DNA of 64,000 bases from Massariosphaeria phaeospora (taxonomy: Eukaryota > Ascomycota > Dothideomycetes > Pleosporales): contig JAADJZ010000011.1 of the NCBI GenBank assembly GCA_011032825.1, positions 1,054,001 through 1,118,000 on the forward strand, in the 5' to 3' direction. The notes under the pieces are model-generated. The model was not told the DNA's origin. It made no database searches and was given only the letters and a program-made list of their open reading frames with translations. Below, in pieces: positions 15,757-39,594 of the stretch (the first letter of the stretch is position 1; every line of letters starts with the position of its first letter). The translations under genes were made by a program, and so were the position numbers.

Positions 15757-18700
15757 ATGGACCTTTGCACGACTGGCAGCAGCAGCAACACGGCCGCGTC
15801 CGCAGACCCGCCCGGCCTCGTCGAACGCTTCGTCGAACGCCTCCTCGCCCGGCTCTTCCACGACCGCTTCCTCCGCCCGTCGTTGAGCCCCGCCCCGCCG
15901 GCCGCCTCGCAGCAGCAGCAGCAGCAGCCGCAGCCCCCAGCCAACCCCCACGCCACGCCCGGCCACCACCACCACCACCTCCCTCGTCCTGCCAATCCTG
16001 CCCTCGCCGCCTTCGCGCTCTCTGCCCACTTCCGCAGCGACCCCTCTGCCCGCGCGCCACAGCCCACCACGGCGGCAGGCATGCCGCAACAGGTCGTCTT
16101 CTGCGTCGAGGACACGGTCAGCCTGAAGCACGACCGCTACAGCGTCGGCGTCGTCGACCGCGCCTTTGGCGATATCGACTCGCACTCGCCCCGCCCGCAG
16201 CGCGACTACGGCGAAGACATCGAGCGGCACCCCGACATACCCACTGAAAAATTCGACAAGTTCATGAAAACCGGCATACCGCCCCGAGGCACCGTCTTGA
16301 TTTCCTGGCAGACATCCCTCCGCACCGAGCTGATCCAGGAAGCCAACCTGGACCTGCTCGACCGGGCACTGTATGTCGGCGATGTCGTCAAGCGCGACGC
16401 AAAGCACCCCATGAGCGGCACCGTCATTGGCACCGAGGCCGTCTGCACCCTCTTCCCCGCAACCATCTTCAACAGCGGCCATTTCGCCCAGTCCCTCCTC
16501 GAGCAGGCGTCAATCAGAGGCGTGCCGGCTGACGAGCTGATCAACGTGCACGAGTACGTCGAGGGCGCCTTGGTCGTGTACGAGGACTGGATCGGCCGGA
16601 TAGAGCACGCCGAAGACGAGGTGGCGGTCAAGCTGAGTAACAACTCTGTCGTCGTCGTCGAGAATCCAGAGGAACTGCACAACAATGATCCCATGCTCGA
16701 TCGCATGAGCGTCGGCGACATGGTCGAGACGGAGAAGTGGAATCTGCGGCGTGGGCGCTGGCGCTATGGGGCCTTTGATCCTCACGTGCGACCGTGAGTT
16801 TTGCGTCCAAGATCTCAAAGCTGGATACGCTTGCTAACTTTCGCAGGAAAGGCATGGTGGTGCAGACGCGCACTACCGAAATCGACGTACACTGGATATC
16901 GAGACGCTTCGGTACCTCTACCGACGAGGGTTCCGCGGGACAGGAGCCGCCTACGCACTTGTATACCGATGATCTGGAAAACGCACGCTTTTACATATAC
17001 GACGCCTCGCGTTGCGCGGCCACTACGCTCCCAGGTTCGGGTGCAGAGCGAACCTACCACGTCACTGAGGTGGCTGTTGGCGACCGGGTACGCTTCAAAG
17101 ACCTGGATGCAGCTGCACTCAAGTATGACGGAACCAACTCGCATGGAAAGGTAACAAAACTACCGCGGACCGAATCGCTCGGCTACGATATGAATGTGTA
17201 TCTGGTCATGTCCACCCAGACCAAAGTCACGGTTCAGTGGCAAGATTTAACCGTTACCGAAGATCAAAGCATATCCCTTATTCCGGACCCGAACGTCGAG
17301 GACGAAGATGAAGTCTGGCCGGGCGAAATAATCTGCACAAAATTCGAGCAAAGGCCGGACAGACCGGACGACGTAAAATGGACTTTTAAACCTGCGAAGG
17401 TGGGCATAGTCCAATCTGTCAACTCCCGCGATCGCATCGCTACGGTCCGGTGGTTTGCGAATCCCAACATCAACTTCTGGGCCGACGACCTTATCCCACC
17501 GTCCGAAACCGGCGCGCTCCGCGAGGAGACAGAGGATGTTAGCTTATACGATATAAAATCAACGCCCAGCCTGACACGACGCCGCGGCGACTTCGTCCTA
17601 ATCCATCCCGACTCTATACAGTCCATACCAGGGACGATCGGCCCAGACTGGTTTGGCGAAGTCATCGATCTAGGCCTTGACGGCAAAGTCGTCGTGAGAG
17701 TTGGAGCTGCGAAACCTGTTGTCGACGTGCGCGTCTCTCCTGAGCGAGTGACACTTGTCTATAGCAGCGACATGGATGACACACTCTTCAACATGGCTGC
17801 GGCCGACGGGGATTCGGAAGATGATTCTGAGGAGGATGACGGCTCAGACTTTGACACTGCCTCATACAACGAGATGTGGGTCGAGTATGAGGGCATGGAG
17901 GGCGAGCCCGCCGACTCCAACAATGAAGAAGACTGGTCCACTGAGAATGATGATGATGAGTCAATGCCAGATCTTGAGCTACCGGATTCCGTAGAGACGT
18001 CGAAGACGACCCCAGAGGTGCACTCGGATCCGGACGGCAAATCGCCCACAATCCCTGGAAACCCTGCCTCGAACGAGGAGACATCGGACAGTCCAACGCC
18101 CATGGACGAAGATCCCCAAGTCTCGGTTCCACCCCAAAATCCGACCACCGATGCGGAGCCTCCAGCATGCTTCGTCGTTCTCGACTCTGCTCCGCCGTCC
18201 GATCACCACTACGTTAGCAATTCTCACACGGAAGCCCATACTTTTATGCGAAAGGTCGCGAAAGAGCACAAAATACTTCGCACCTCCCTTCCGCCTGGCA
18301 TCTTCGTCCGAACATGGGAATCCCGCATGGATTTAATCCGCGTGCTCATGATCGGTCCATCAGATACACCATACGAATACGCCCCGTTCATCATCGACTT
18401 GCAACTCGGCCCGTTGTATCCGCAGACCCCTCCAGAAGCCTACTTCCACAGCTGGACGAATGGAAACGGCCCCGTCAACCCCAACCTATACGAGGACGGA
18501 AAGATCTGTCTCAGTTTGCTAGGGACGTGGCACGCCGACGAGCGCAACGAAGGCTGGAGCCCGACCAAGAGCACGCTCCTGCAGGTCCTCGTATCCATCA
18601 TGGGCCTCGTGCTCGTCAAAGAACCCTACTACAACGAAGCAGGCTACGACGTCCACCGCGAAGCCCCCGAAACCAAGCTCAGCAGCGCCCTCTACACGGA

Positions 18701-18980
18701 GCGCGCCTACTTCCGCTCTCGCGCCTTCATCGTCCACGCCCTCACTACCGACGTCTTGCCCTTCGCCGACGAACTGCGCTATCTGTACCGGCGGCAAGCA
18801 GACGATGCCCCACGGTTGCTCGACAGGGCCATCGAGGCTTCGAAGGCGATTCTGCAGCGCAGCGAGAAGGGGAAGGAGGAGGGCGAGAGGGATGGATTGC
18901 GGAGGATCAGCTTGGGCGCTGTGGTCATGTTGAGGAGGCAGGTGGTGGCGTTAGAGGGTTTACGAGACGCAGAGCGGTAA
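15757..18980 (+). CDS. UBE2O-like ubiquitin-conjugating enzyme E2
   Basis: Large E2 (or E2/E3 hybrid by comparison with human UBE2O) predicted at 1056 residues from exons 15757-16793 and 16847-18980; the 53-nt intron has the branch GCTAAC and phase 2. The N-terminus has poly-Gln and poly-His tracts, then SH3/KOW-like beta modules typical of UBE2O ([59 protein letters not shown]). An acidic region follows (about residues 655-720). The C-terminal UBC fold spans about 812-985 and holds [13 protein letters not shown] and the active-site motif [16 protein letters not shown], with Cys about residue 900. The start is the first ATG in frame; the codons before it only start at TTG. Human UBE2O ubiquitinates ribosomal and other basic proteins; that this protein does the same is inference. 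Confidence 0.9.
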
Positions 18981-31455: not shown

Positions 31456-32058
31456 TCACGACCTTCCAAGCAAATCCCCAAGCAGACTACCCCCAGCCCC
31501 ACCCGCACGGCCTCCTCTTCTAGCTTCCATCAACAGCCACTCCCGGAGGAACTCTTTATTCTTCATCTGCTCCGGCTTCGTAAGCTTGGTCTCCGTCTGC
31601 GCCTCCTGTCTGCTAAAAGCGAGAAGTGTAGGCATTGACATTATCTACCAATCCATTAGCAATTGTTTCCAGCAGTCCCACATTTACGCGTCGTGACAGC
31701 ATACCATGTACTTCACCCCCAGGTCGCCAATCAGTACACTGTCTAATTCCACCTCAGCGAACCCTAATCCGCCTTCTTGTTCGCCGACTTTTTCGTCCTC
31801 GATCAGCGCCTTCACGATCGGTTTGACGGCTTGACACGTTGTGCACCAGGACGCGCTCCATAGCGTTATCAGAGGCCGGTTTCCGGCCGCAGAGACCATT
31901 GTTAGGGTGTGGAGGTCTTGTGGGGTTCGGATGTTATCGAAGACGCGGTTCTGGTTCGAGCGTTCTAAGGAGGCGCCGAAGAGCGTTCGGTGGGGCTGGC
32001 ATCGTGAGAGTCGGAGAGCGATGCGAGGGGATATAAGACGTGATGATCGGAGTATCAT
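31456..32058 (-). CDS. Mitochondrial thioredoxin-like protein
   Basis: Predicted 180 residues from exons 32058-31705 and 31644-31456, phase 0. A thioredoxin fold is shown by LITLWSASWCTTCQAVKPIV, with the redox pair in WCTTC, then VELDSVLIGDLGVKYMIMSMPTLLAF, in which the cis-proline motif SMPT is split from its preceding strand by the intron. The N-terminus from the chosen ATG (MILRSSRLISPRIALRLSR) is Arg/Ser-rich, lacks acidic residues and looks like a mitochondrial presequence. An in-frame ATG 34 codons upstream (32160) is possible but adds a less typical leader. The C-terminus has KKPEQMKNKEFL-type helix and a Gly-rich end. A disulfide reductase or chaperone role in mitochondria is inferred. 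It is followed on the same strand by the large gene's 3' end about 300 bp upstream. Confidence 0.82.
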
Positions 32059-32356
32059 TGTTGAGGTGGCTGGTTGAGACGACTCGTGCTGAAGTGTAGG
32101 GTGTGAAAAGAAAGGTGTGCAGACACAGGAAAGTGGAAAGTACGCGACTCGCGACGTCATCTCGCCAAGCCGCTAGGTGTGATCCGGCGTAGCTACTCAT
32201 TCTATCCGACAATCACGTCTCAGAGAAGTGATTGTATCCTGGATTGCTTCAAACCAAATAGACTAAAGAATTCCATTCGGTTGGACAGGCAAAACAAAAC
32301 TACCTAGGTATAAGAAAGTACAAACAAAACCAAGCAGAACGAAGAAACTAAAAGGA

Positions 32357-35300
32357 CTACCAGTCAGAACTATCCGAATCCAACATAACGACATCCACAT
32401 CCGTGTCATAGTCGTCCAAAAAGGCCAAGCTATCGTGATCGCTGTCCACCTCATCGCTGTCCATCATCCATTCATCCCTTCCGGAGATATCCCACTCATC
32501 ATAATCGTCTCCTCGTTTTAAAATCTTGCTCTCTGCAAGTACGCGTTGTAAAATGGCTTCAAAATCATCTGGCGCCTGGACAGCAACATTTCCAGTCCCC
32601 TCTTCCTCTTCCTGTGGAACTTCCAGCCCTAGTGCCCTTCTATCTTCTTCAAGTTGCCGAAACTCGTCTTCCTCCATCACAATATTTTCAACCTTATAGT
32701 CTGTCGTGAGCATGGTAGAGAAGTCCACATTAGTATTCCTGTCCATCTTATAGTGACTTCCATCATCTCGAGCCAGGTCGTGTTCCGCAGCTACATCAGC
32801 GGGGATAAAATCACTTAGATCCGGTGCGAGAGATTGATAAAACCGTCGGTCGGCCAGCACATACTCAAGCGATGTTTCCTCCACAAGGCCACGACAGATA
32901 AGCCACGCGACTAGTAACTGCCAATCGACTAGACCGTTCAGTGCGAGCCTAATCATTTGGTAGAGTTCGGGGTAGAGTCCGGTGGCTCCAAAGTTTGCGG
33001 TAGGGTTTGGAGTGAGTCCTAAGGCCAGAATCCACGCATTTACAATGGTGTGAAGGGCTGAGTGCAAATTGTTGACTTGACGTGCCACTTTAACGCCACG
33101 GTAAATGGTTTCGAATTCCACGAATTCGCCTCGGAATCTATGACCGCTCGTCCAGCCTAGGTTCTCAGCAGCTCGCTGGACGGCCGGATACAGGGACTCT
33201 CGGACCCGTTGACTTAACTCCGATAGCTCCTCAAGACTATCAAGGACGTATGCTCGGAAAACATGTGTGTCCGGATCGCCCTCATACTCTTCTTCCTCTT
33301 GGATGACAACGAGGAGTGTACGCGGAATTTTATCAATTATTTTTACGGGCATGAACCAACAGCGACGAGGTCTAGAAACAACAAAATCGACGTCGCGGTG
33401 GATTCCACCACGACAGCCCCAAGCGATATCGGACCCTTGGGCAATGGCGAAACCTGCGTTGCTGTAGCCCGAGGTGAGCTGACGCTCATGCAAAGGCCTG
33501 ACAACGGACGCAATGCCTGCCATAACATTGTCTCTCGTAAGGAAGGCCACCGTATCGCCACGTTGTAATCTTTCCCAGGTTGGTAGCTTGGTTACTGGGT
33601 CAATGCGGCGTTCCATCTCTTCCATTATCTCTTGCAACAGACCATATCGCGCTTTGAAGTATCTGCAATGCCCGTTCTTGTCATCCTCGTTAAGAGTTGG
33701 TAGAGTCTTGTTTAGATACATGTTGAACCGTTCGGCGAGATTTGGAACTTTCCCAGGATCTTCTCCTAGATGCTCAGCAAATTTAGCCAGAGTCGGAGCA
33801 TCGGCAGCAGATGGTGAGTCTTCTCTCCCGCCTTCCGTCTTCTTCGAGAAGTGAACATTGAGTGTGCGATCATATGGGGTCTTGTCGATGGAGTCTTGTG
33901 CTAATTCATCATCCTGAGCCGCCATCTTTTTAATCCTATCTCCTAATGTGTTTTCTCCTATTGTGTTTTCGGAATCGGCTAATTGGATAAGAGTACTGTG
34001 GAACCGAAAATGCTTCTTGACAATCTTTGGGCCACTGCGTTCTGGAATGGCGATGAGGTTACGGCACTTTAGAAACGCGAAGAGAGTAAGCCAGTCTAAC
34101 AACCCCTGACAGGCCAGTTCGGCGAGGTTCTTGATCTCCTTGTATATTTGCTCAGTCATTTTTTCCAGCTCATGGTTTGGATGCAGTCCGAGTGCTAAGA
34201 TCCACGCGTTTACAATAGCATGGTAGCCGCATCCGTATTTTGCACCGTGACGCGGAACCTTGACATTCCTCCATACTTTGCTAAACCCGATCTGGTCCTG
34301 ATCGTTACGGTTACTGTGCCATCCCAAGTTTCTTGCAGCCTCTTCGATTTTGGCGAGCAGAAACGGTCTAACGTCCGCGTAATGTTCAGGAGCAGGGTCC
34401 AGTATATAGGTGCGGAATTCTGACTTGTCTTTTTCTTCTTGTAATACGACCAGGAAGGTATGTTTATGCTGTTCCCCTGCGGATTTTCCAGTATTTTTAC
34501 CTCCTTTGTTCTCTTCTCGAATGTTCTTAACCTCTACGTTGAGTTCTCCGTCCACGCAAAAGGGCATAAACCAGCACCTTCTGCTACGTGCCACTCTCAC
34601 CGCCGTGTCTTGATGGCCAGTTCGAGCCATCGAGATCCATGAGCTCGTCGATAGAGTATACCCACCGGCGTGTCTACCGTTACTGAGCGGTTGGATGCTA
34701 TCTATAGCTCCTACGACGCTAGATATAGCTGCCACGATGTCTTCATCCTCAAGAAACCCTCCGAGTTTTGGTAGTTCTTTTGACTTGGTCCCCTTGAGTT
34801 TCCCGGACATGAGTTTCTGGACCTGTTGCAGCTGTTTGTTCTTCTTAAACCAGTACTTGCAAGCATCAACCAAAGCCATGGCTTCATGTAGTTCCTGGCC
34901 GGTTGAAGAATCGGGAAGGTAGTATTTGTGAAAGTCGCTTGCGATGTTCTCGAGGCTGGAGTCCTGCAGGGATAAGCCGGTATGTTGTTGGAGTCTCCGT
35001 TCTATCCTGGCAACAACATCTGACGCCTCGTCTAAATTACTATTGATATGGCGGTCCCAATCTTGGTCGACCTGGGCCGCACTTCGATTAATATCAATAT
35101 CTATGCCCCATTCTTGAAGCTCGCGAACACGATTTTTAGTGTCTTCAGTCCAGCTATCAGAGGGAAATGTCGAGTTGTGTTTTCTGCCATCTGGAACTCG
35201 AAGTAGGTTATTGGCATAGATCATTATTCGAGAAAGCTTTTTCCCGTGCGACTCCGCTTCTTCAACCTTGATCTCTTTAAGATGGTCTTTGAGCTCTTCT

Positions 35301-38300
35301 TCATCCTGGATTCTCAGCGTATTCGTGATTCTTGCAGGGGAAGGGACCACGTCCGAAGTAACGAAGTCGTGACAGCGAAGAAAAGCGTATATCAGTGACC
35401 AATCTGCAAGACCGGCGCGAGCGAGTTGAACTATCATTTGTAGCTCTTCAAGAAAATTTCCACTTAAATCGGCTTTGAAGTCCGGATTGACCGTCAGTCC
35501 TAACGCAAGCGACCAAGCGTTGAGAATCACCAGGAAACCGCACAGCCAGTCATTAACTTGCACAGCGCATCGGGACCAGGTGGCTGTTGCCGGCTTGTCT
35601 CTTTCGAAGTCATCTATAGTCCTGTGGGTTTCCCGCCACCATCCAGAAGACCTTAGAATATTCCACGCAATGCCGAACACTAGGTCGCGTGTGTCATCCT
35701 CCAGGACCCACGGCATAGAATCTAGCACGGAAATCGCGGGTAAACCGTCACGGTCAAACCGCATCACTAGTAGTATAATGTGAGTTCCTATATGGCTGCT
35801 CAAGCGCTCGTTCTGGTCCTCGTTCAGCTTTCGAGACCCTGGGATGAGAGGGACGATCATTGGCCGGCCAGGACGGATTGCTGCATACTCCGGAAAAAAG
35901 TCACTGATCATCCCGCATAATTGTTTTTCAAGCGCAGGAAGGAAACTCATGGCTCGCACCGGACCAAGCGAATTTGTTGGTGTAGCATATTGGCCCCTCG
36001 TAATGGCCAACGTGACTGATGCGATAGCCATATCTACATCCACTTCTTCCAGCCACTGTCCCATACCCATCGCAACATGGATTCCTGCGAGTAAGTTCTG
36101 TTTATGGCTGTCCTCGGAAATCTCAGCCAATCTTTTGCGGAGATACCCACAAGGATCATCGACAGCGGCGGGAATGTCAGTTGTGTCAATTTGAGCTGGC
36201 TGTCTTTGCAAACGGACGTACCATTCCCGTAGTTGACTAGCGGGGAGCGATGCACGCAACCGACGACCTTGATATAGTGTTGGAACTCGTTCAGTCCTGT
36301 CTGTCTCGTCCCAATTATCGGAAGCGAATTCATTGCTGTGCGGTTGACCCGTCGGGAACTTCCAGTTGTTATGGAACGGCATGTCAGGCTGCTGAGATCT
36401 CCACTGCCTTCTCGCTCTCAAATAGGCTAGGTGCGAGTCCAATCTTTTGTCGTTTATAGCACGTCGGAACCTGCGGTCTGGATTAGGAGGACGCTCCTCC
36501 GCGACAAATCCGTGACAGCGCAGAAACGACCAGATCAGCTTCCAGTCCGCGGTACCGTCCAGGACTGTTTCGACAACAGTTTTGGCTTCCAACCAGAAGT
36601 CTCCGGTAGGTCGAAAGGCGGAGCGGGGTTGGAGGCCAAGGAGGACGCTCCACGCATTGAATATGGTGTAGTATCCGCTTTGCCAGTATCGATTTTCCCC
36701 GTTGAGCACTCTGTTAGTCCACATGGTGAACTCTGGTAGGGAAGCTTCCAATCCAGAATTCCACCCATTACTCTGGATCAGCTTCGAAGACTTAAGGTGA
36801 GTGATTCTTCGCTCCTTCTGGTTCGCGATCCATGGCGCAGAGTCAAGAACATAGATTTTGATTAGGTCTTTGGGGCCGCCAGGCTCGTCAGCGTCTTCAG
36901 TGGGCTCAACCTGGACAGCAACGAGAACTGTGTGTTGCTGCCAACTCCAAGGGAAAAGGAGCAATCTACCCTCTCCAAAGACCGAGGCGTCGGCACTTTC
37001 ATTTGGAACATTTGGAAGAACTGTCGAGCGGAGTGTTGCAAGATCGATCGCCGCCAAACCTTGCCTAGGAGGTTGGAACGATGTAATTGCCTGGTTCACT
37101 CCAGCTATAGCTTGGAATATCACATCCCTATCAAGTCCAAACTTGTCCTCGTCTGATTTCTGTACATTTTCAGCAATGATTGGCTGTGCTGGAATATTAT
37201 CACGAAGGTATGCGCAGGCATCGAAGTCCTCCGGGATGTCAACATCTTGATCGAATCGGGTATCTAGCTCTCCCAAAGAAGTGTTGGGGTTCGTACGGAT
37301 CAGATCAGGGACCACTTCTTGTTTGTAGTTATCATCCCAGCGATCGGATTGGAAATTACCGGTGTGTGTTCTTCCTGCCGGAAGTTGAACTCGAAGTTGT
37401 CGCGAAAAATCGAAGAGAACATGTTGAGAGTCCCATCGCGCAGCTCGTTCTGCATCATCGGCAATCGAAAAATTAGGCCCGTGTCTGAATCGGCGATTCT
37501 GTGGTGGGGAGCGAACTTTGTTCGTAATGAAACCATGGCATCTGAAAAACGCTAGGAGCAACTTCCAATCGAGCGAACGATGATCGATGGCAAGGTGAAT
37601 AAGCTTTCTTGCTTCTGTGATGAATTGCTCTTCAATTTTGGGCTTGAATGTGACATTCAGCTCTAACCTCATTGCTAGTGCCCATGCGCTCAGGATTGCG
37701 TAAAATTGGCTTCCCTCTTCATCACCCTTCTGCGCGGCTGCTACCCAGGTGGCACTTTGAGTGAACGGTTCTTGCGTCTCTTCATCATCGTCGGTAATGG
37801 ATCGCCACCAATGTGTTTTTCGCAGCACGGTCAAGGCGGACTGGTACACCGTATCTCGATCCGATTTCGAGAATATCCATTGCCTAGAGTCCAAGACATG
37901 TACAGTAGCAGTGTAATCTTCGTCGGGCTGTACAACTAGGAGTACCATGTGTTCATTGTGCAGCATAGGCAGCAATAATGGCCTCCCAGCACGCACAACC
38001 CTCTTAGGAACCCTGTTCGTATGAGACTCCGCTGTGTCTGGCAAAGAGCCGTATTCCAAGAGACAGAAACCGGACTCGGGGTTTTGACGGCCATTGATAG
38101 CGCAGATAACCGTGTTGAGCGCACCCAGGAGCAAGTCCGGTAAGGGTTTCCCAACATGTGATTCAGATGAGTCAACAAATTCATCTTCCAATTCTTCGAG
38201 GCGTTTCTTGAGATAGGCGCAGGGTGTAGAGCCCTCGAATATATCGCCATCTGTTGGACTCTGTGGGCTCTTTGACCTGTTAGAGCTACTGGAGCTTCTT

Positions 38301-39594
38301 TTTTTGACAGGGGTTGGTATGGCATCATGATTCAAAGCTGGATCGATTAGTTTCTGGTTTGCATTCCCATGTGCATGCACTTCGGCCGGTATAACTGGGT
38401 CTTGTTGAATTGGGTTTTGTTGAGATGGGACCAGGGGAGCAGCAACTTGATTCGAAGGACCTTGCTTCGGAGGGACTGAACCTGCGGGAATTTCCGACTG
38501 TACTTCGTCCTGCTGATCCACGGCCTGTTGATCCGCAGCTTGTTGATCCGCAGCCTGTTGATCCGCAGCCTGTTGTTCCGCAGCTTGCTGTCTTTCATCT
38601 TGATACTGGAGGTCGTCTATCTCCTCCCAGACCACGGTCAAGTCATCATCCTGCACATCGTCTCCATGGCCATCCGCGGGCTCTGCACCTGGAGCACCTT
38701 GCTCTTGTGGCCTATACGACAAGTCATCTCGTCTTCGCCAGAAGAATATCGGTTGACCGAGTAACTCGATGACGGTGAAATCGTCCAGTGATCCAATCCA
38801 TAGCTCTCTGACTTGCTCCTTTTTGGTTTTATTAGCCTTGGAGTTGTCATACTGAAAGGTTTGCCCGTTGACGATAAGGTTTGTGTTGTTTGGGACCCTG
38901 ATCCAATAGCGGTGATGCTCTTCGCTTTCGCCTCGGACACGGACGATGTCGAAGGTTTGTGGCTCACCATCACTCGGAGTGCTAACAGTACATAAATAAG
39001 TTAGTCATGTTCAGTTTATAGGGCCTGCGTTGCGGACACCCACATAGTGATTCTCCAGCTTCCACTTAACGTGATCACGGGATGGTCGTCTGATCTCGAA
39101 GCTACAACCGCTGTCTCCCCAGTTGCGCCGAAGAGGGCCCTCGAATTCTGACTAGGATTCCCAGTAGCACCAACATGTTGTTGAAACGTACGCGCCAAAT
39201 CCTGCGAGCCCCGGTTAACGTTCCGGATCGCCGCCTTGCGGTTGGCACCTGTACTAGCCAGAACAGGAGACCAGATCGGCGAAGGATCAAGAGTCTTTGC
39301 GCGCGATTTGGTATCTTTGTCCCAGACCCTTCTACTGAGACGACAGTCAAGAAGTCTCGAGGCGAACTGGAAAGTTGCGTCGTCATCCCCCGGCGAGGTT
39401 TGTCTTGGAAGGATCCACTGAATTACTTTTTGCGGCGGGCTGACTTTCTTGTCTTTCCGCTGTGGAGCGTTCTTGGTTTCTGATTGGGAGGGGTTTGATG
39501 TTGGGTCTCCATTCCCAGTGTTGGCTTTTTTGGTCGGAGGCTCGTCGGCGCTAGGTTTCGCTGAGCGCTTTCTGCCGCGTTTCTTGGGACCCAT
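32357..39594 (-). CDS. Giant protein with five tandem Ulp1/C48-like protease modules
   Basis: Predicted 2391 residues from exon 1 (39594-39044) and exon 2 (38981-32357); the 62-nt intron is phase 2. The long frame opens only with TTG at 38722, and upstream sequence in frame (DDFTVIELLGQPIFFWRRRDD) shows it continues to this intron. Residues 1-25 carry a nuclear-localisation-like cluster (GPKKRGRKRSAKP, PPTKK). About residues 165-270 form an unassigned domain; 320-345 is a DQQAA repeat. Five modules begin near residues 438, 773, 1128, 1558 and 1956. Each has His-x19-29-Asp-Ser/Pro then Cys or Ser after 55-60 residues, in [C/S]-x4-I-x2-AW. Module 3: His1251, Asp1271, Gln1325, Cys1331 (Gln six before Cys, as in Ulp1). 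Module 4: His1691, Asp1712, Cys1768. Modules 1, 2 and 5 have Ser; module 5 also lost His. The tail is very acidic. A SUMO- or ubiquitin-like peptidase or binder is inferred. Confidence 0.85.
38520..38590 (-). repeat. 15-bp coding repeat (DQQAA units)
   Basis: Four to five copies of a 15-bp unit encoding Asp-Gln-Gln-Ala-Ala/Val, with a sixth Glu-Gln-Gln variant, near the start of exon 2 of the large gene. Confidence 0.85.

Follow-up and report, generated by a model that had tools for sequence, protein, structure and literature searches.

A tandem array of Ulp1-like protease modules, probably a cysteine isopeptidase, in Massariosphaeria phaeospora and other Pleosporales

What does a protein do that strings together five copies of a protease-like module, when the catalytic residues are complete in so few of them? 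This question is raised by a gene on the minus strand of Massariosphaeria phaeospora contig JAADJZ010000011.1, positions 32357 to 39594 of the 64,000-nucleotide window analysed here, in which a preliminary description made from the letters alone had seen five tandem Ulp1/C48-like protease modules in a protein of 2391 residues. The evidence set out below makes it probable, in our judgement, that the product is a cysteine isopeptidase of Pleosporales, Ulp1-like (peptidase C48-like, clan CE) and built of several modules, that acts, most likely, on a nuclear ubiquitin-like modifier. Open reading frame (ORF) analysis gave a 2121-codon open frame (32357-38722, minus strand) that ends in a stop at 32357, and a 62-nt intron (39043-38982) links this frame to an ATG at 39594, yielding the 2391 residues claimed. 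Note that six candidate introns leave the frame open; the 62-nt option reproduces the NCBI protein, and the NCBI model (BDV95DRAFT_607134, here P0001) encodes the same protein except at its 3' end.

The modules, of some 320-370 residues each, resemble one another far beyond chance. In particular, a profile made from any four of them recovers the left-out fifth at 115-156 bits, whereas the best shuffled control reached 9.1 bits (500 shuffles per module, of which 262-323 were reported by the program), which rules out chance repetition. The module starts given earlier (residues 438, 773, 1128, 1558 and 1956) proved exact, and the (C/S)-x4-I-x2-A-W motif was found in all five modules. Three further signatures that had been ascribed to every module each fail in one: module 4 departs from the Cys-Xaa-Tyr-Leu/Phe start (CKYW) and from V-L-D-S (ILDP), and module 5 has Arg2071 at the position of the His. 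The active-site Cys is retained in modules 3 and 4 only (Ser608, Ser952 and Ser2158 take its place in modules 1, 2 and 5), so an array of five active proteases can be set aside; Gln stands at -6 in modules 3 and 5 only. The His-Asp-Gln-Cys pattern with Gln six residues before Cys is thus present in module 3 (H1251, D1271, Q1325 and C1331, as had been claimed) and absent from modules 1, 2, 4 and 5. Judged by these residues, the catalytic pattern of module 3 is that of clan CE.

When a profile of nine third modules was compared with the PDB at E values up to 10, the sole chain matched was 6dg4 (E 8e-4), the Ulp1-like SUMO protease of Chaetomium thermophilum, in an alignment that pairs all four catalytic residues of profile and chain. 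Moreover, the predicted fold of modules 2 and 4, the two that the structural assignment covers, is that of clan CE, the top structural matches being SENP2, Ulp1, SENP1 and SENP5. UniRef labels four relatives of the protein as ubiquitin-like protease family (names truncated). Among eight relatives scanned with Pfam, three (P0004, P0007 and P0014) have a third module that scores above the C48 cut-off, and P0003, at 19.4, falls just under the cut-off of 20.7.

The preliminary description knew of no fungal protein with five such modules. Two protein searches yielded at least 18 distinct proteins with 3-5 modules (that of M. phaeospora included); the P. fusca protein also has five, its extra module being third in order, not fifth. 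The existence of these relatives excludes a one-of-a-kind protein. (Note that each of three protein searches scored 7990-7998 candidates sharing most words and that the family list is incomplete; P0002, P0004, P0005, P0008, P0009 and P0010 were found in the first search and not returned by the second.) A search for single-module proteins returned three only, P0011-P0013, of 178-567 aa and apparently partial. Hosts were assigned for seven of the 18 proteins (M. phaeospora, Polyplosphaeria, Alternaria, Neocucurbitaria, Massarina, Melanomma and Lophiostoma), all of them Pleosporales. Because the searches depend on shared words over limited candidates, and because hosts are assigned for this subset, the array may spread beyond Pleosporales.

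Active-site residues were then counted in 69 modules of these proteins. Modules were labelled by position as types 1 to 4, with our reading of a first, smaller tree added for proteins of three or five modules; P0001 (the same gene) and P0011-P0013 were left out, and profile matches of 30 bits or less were dropped. (P0006 and P0020 start within a module, the N-terminus is missing from several other relatives, modules 1 and 4 are incomplete in the P0009 model, and P0008 and P0009 are closely related, so the counts are not independent.) Type-1 modules, counted with the first module of the Lophiostoma protein (P0018_m1) that the tree places with type 2, have Cys in 0/17, Asp in 16/17 and His in 8/17. 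Type-2 modules likewise have Cys in 0/14, together with His in 12/14, Asp in 14/14 and Gln in 12/14, and these last three sites lie at the 88th-96th percentile of type-2 columns as against the 61st for the Cys site. The full tetrad is present in 17/18 type-3 modules and invariant in the nine type-3 modules aligned; type-4 modules keep Cys in 17/18 and the full tetrad in 9/18, and the two extra modules have no Cys (0/2).

On a tree of the same 69 modules, type 3 forms one group (97/94), and types 1 (99/99) and 2 (99/96) form separate groups, the Lophiostoma first module being the exception. The two extra modules fall with type 4 into one group (100/100), in which the type-4 modules by themselves do not cluster as a unit. 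As the modules group by position, the tree argues that the four-module array is ancient and that the ancestral array had four modules; the extra dead modules, in turn, appear to stem from the type-4 line. In local alignments, modules 1-4 show 34-40% identity between M. phaeospora and Alternaria rosae, against 67% for a thioredoxin-like neighbour, and thus the array changes faster than the gene beside it. As a separate observation, P0004 and P0008 are 62-96% identical per 50-column window through module 1 (residues 1-450) and 12-67% identical thereafter, a pattern that reflects either module exchange via recombination or a chimaeric metagenome contig.

Several results weigh against assigning the array to a Ulp1-like isopeptidase. 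The whole protein has no match to Pfam PF02902 (Peptidase_C48) at E values up to 1, module 3 alone is also without a match, and four of the eight relatives scanned (P0017, P0018, P0020 and P0021) have none at E 0.1. (Because the M. phaeospora protein and five of these eight relatives fall short of the C48 cut-off, Pfam scans can evidently miss arrays of this kind.) No Foldseek match had an E value below 0.001. Similarly, hhalign against the genome's own ULP1 gave a weak probability of 30.5% for type 3 and of less than 8% for the other groups. His is lost from 9/17 type-1 modules, and module 2 of M. phaeospora is one of the two type-2 modules without Gln, having Glu instead. Two features of SUMO contact belong in the same list. 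In Ulp1/SENP proteases one tunnel Trp stands directly after the catalytic His, and the His-Trp pair was itself seen in the Ulp-type sequences compared here; Trp follows the catalytic His in 0/36 type-3 and type-4 modules. The second is a SUMO salt bridge of Ulp1 Asp451, which we take to lie in a W-L-N-D motif (N450/D451); the W of W-L-x-D is present in 0/31 type-1 and type-2 modules (two being truncated at that site), which speaks against an Ulp1-like grip on SUMO. (Passages of PMC4281951 ascribe to Ulp1/SENP enzymes a Cys-His-Asp triad with an invariant Gln, and conserved Trp residues lining the tunnel that positions the di-glycine.) Taken together, what the preliminary description observed is confirmed in part, and its interpretation is supported in part.

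These contact features bear on the first alternative, namely that the array is a canonical Ulp/SENP SUMO protease with additional copies of its catalytic domain. The best structural matches are indeed SUMO proteases, and type 3 keeps W-L-x-D in part (W in 14/18 and D in 11/18, with Glu in two, that of M. phaeospora among them), but the His-Trp pair is absent, direct sequence similarity is weak, and the genome has five C48 matches of its own, among them a ULP1-like gene and a Den1-like gene (both named by eye), so that those roles look filled. We consider this alternative unlikely. Because no Trp follows the His, we keep the array apart from the Ulp/SENP proteases proper, although its mode of action is probably the same; and because His-Trp is absent and W-L-x-D only partly kept, we go no further than to call the substrate a ubiquitin-like modifier, with SUMO among the candidates. 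That the array is a clan-CE enzyme acting on a different substrate or by a different chemistry, whether as a protease of peptides other than ubiquitin-like modifiers or as an acyltransferase like those of the YopJ branch, seems to us quite unlikely.

We also entertained the idea of a structural protein, in which all modules are scaffolds without catalysis and the remaining Cys residues are relics. In favour of this idea, Cys is absent from 35/69 modules (replaced by Ser in 19, Ala in 9, Thr in 3, Gly in 2, Leu in 1 and Val in 1), and the Lophiostoma protein (P0018) lacks even the module-3 Cys; however, at least one module with a complete tetrad is present in 18/18 proteins, the fourth module of P0018 is complete where its third is dead, and the type-3 tetrad positions lie at the 88th-95th percentile of columns even though relatives are only 33-39% identical to M. 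phaeospora module 3. We therefore think a purely structural role improbable. Last, certain eukaryotic DNA transposons carry C48 proteases, but a domesticated or active transposon protein is very hard to credit here, given that no second copy or paralogue was found in the 42-Mb genome (the searches being lower bounds, with one other row at E 0.55), that a Pfam scan of the frame found no transposase domain, and that the thioredoxin gene adjoins the array also in A. rosae (judged from a fused model).

We thus return to the multi-module Ulp1-like isopeptidase. Module 3 is predicted to cut by the Ulp1 mechanism, with a His-Asp pair, a Gln at the oxyanion hole and a Cys nucleophile, and module 4 would also cut, its tetrad being complete in roughly half of the relatives and altered in M. 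phaeospora. In modules 1 and 2, and likewise in module 5, the extra copy, the Cys would have been lost and the fold kept, and most type-2 modules keep the rest of the active site. Given what these modules retain, their most likely role is not cutting; they would instead bind the modifier or a substrate that carries it, or give the array its shape. A more speculative picture, to which we give some credence but not our preference, is of a single-chain editor of modifier chains: modules 1 and 2 might be natural traps for modifier units or conjugates, cutting being left to modules 3 and 4, and array length and trap number might set which chains are edited, modules being gained, lost and silenced with one live cutter always kept.

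Features of the array gene and its neighbour, by position in the window
Feature	Position	Strand	Description
Whole gene	32357..39594	-	2391 aa; exon 1 39044-39594, intron 38982-39043, exon 2 32357-38981
N-terminal basic stretch	39523..39594	-	PKKRGRKR..PTKK; nuclear-localisation-like
N-terminal beta-rich domain	38681..38977	-	..VNGxTF..IGxLxxFTVIELLxQPIFFWR; conserved in relatives
Module 1	37286..38251	-	residues 428-749; H528, D548, Ser608 replaces Cys; predicted non-catalytic
Module 2	36257..37246	-	residues 763-1092; H867, D897, Glu at -6, Ser952 replaces Cys; predicted non-catalytic
Module 3	35099..36184	-	residues 1117-1478; full H1251, D1271, Q1325, C1331; predicted active protease
Module 4	33773..34891	-	residues 1548-1920; H1691, D1712, C1768, His1762 at Gln position; possibly weakened
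Module 5	32639..33697	-	residues 1946-2298; Arg2071, D2098, Q2152, Ser2158; predicted non-catalytic extra copy, module-4 group
Acidic C-terminal tail	32360..32431	-	FLDxY (here FLDDY), then presumed SUMO-interacting-motif (SIM)-like VDVVMLDSDSSD
Thioredoxin-like gene	31684..32160	-	own ATG, presequence-like start (by eye); PF00085 19.8 bits, cut-off 23.5

Outside the modules, a K/R-rich start was seen by eye in all seven proteins that reach the N-terminus (M. phaeospora included), and FLD falls within the final 60 residues of 13/18 proteins. By eye, the segment that follows FLDDY looks SIM-like. The basic N-terminus and the acidic tail suggest a nuclear protein. The strands of the N-terminal domain come from a structure model of low to middling confidence, and sequence searches of Pfam and the PDB gave no persuasive match for this domain.

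The NCBI models of M. phaeospora and A. rosae both join the thioredoxin-like ORF to the array, the former by skipping the stop at 32357. We considered whether the thioredoxin might be a true C-terminal domain. The in-frame stop, the ATG and presequence-like start of the thioredoxin ORF, and the end of P0008 (which closes with FLDxY, although its modules share 91-96% identity with those of the A. rosae protein) argue that the thioredoxin-like gene is most likely separate and the fused models annotation errors. The occurrence of fused models in both species nonetheless points to a conserved order of array and thioredoxin gene. The window also holds a UBE2O-like ubiquitin-conjugating enzyme (16794-18980, plus strand; UQ_con 65 bits, SH3-B_UBE2O 30 bits) about 13 kb from the array, probably by coincidence. 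Passages of PMC8146201 mention that an accessory chromosome in Parastagonospora nodorum carries two genes annotated as Ulp1 protease.

The Ulp1/SENP proteases known have one catalytic domain per chain. Compared with them (6dg4, yeast Ulp1 and human SENP2), the array has 3-5 modules, about half without Cys, lacks the Trp after His and is 8-16% identical to the Ulp/SENP rows in structural alignments. No description of tandem C48 arrays was found among the papers listed by searches of the open literature, which misses most subscription papers. If our reading is true, live Ulp1-like cutters and Cys-less copies have become joined in a single chain in the course of evolution, providing a natural counterpart (none was found described in nature in that literature) of the laboratory SUMO-trap design and a direct test both of pseudo-protease modules as modifier readers and of module number as what sets chain editing. 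Carboxypeptidase D and the polyserases, as described in PMC5683605 and PMC1435904, likewise carry several protease domains per chain, and one of the three domains of carboxypeptidase D is predicted inactive, as are the dead modules here; these are metallo- and serine protease families unrelated to the array. A further comparison is with the Ulp1 catalytic domain with Cys580Ser, which, according to passages of PMC3216068, acts as a SUMO trap (SUMO1 being bound with a preliminary Kd of 12.8 nM), also binds SUMO2 chains and needs Asp451 for targeting. This Ulp1(3)C580S trap is man-made, and its W-L-N-D with Asp451 is not retained in types 1 and 2. Like the trap, however, many type-2 modules combine the Ulp1 fold with Ser in place of Cys and the other active-site residues kept, and by this analogy the Ulp1 Cys580Ser mutant seems to have its natural equivalents in type-2 modules.
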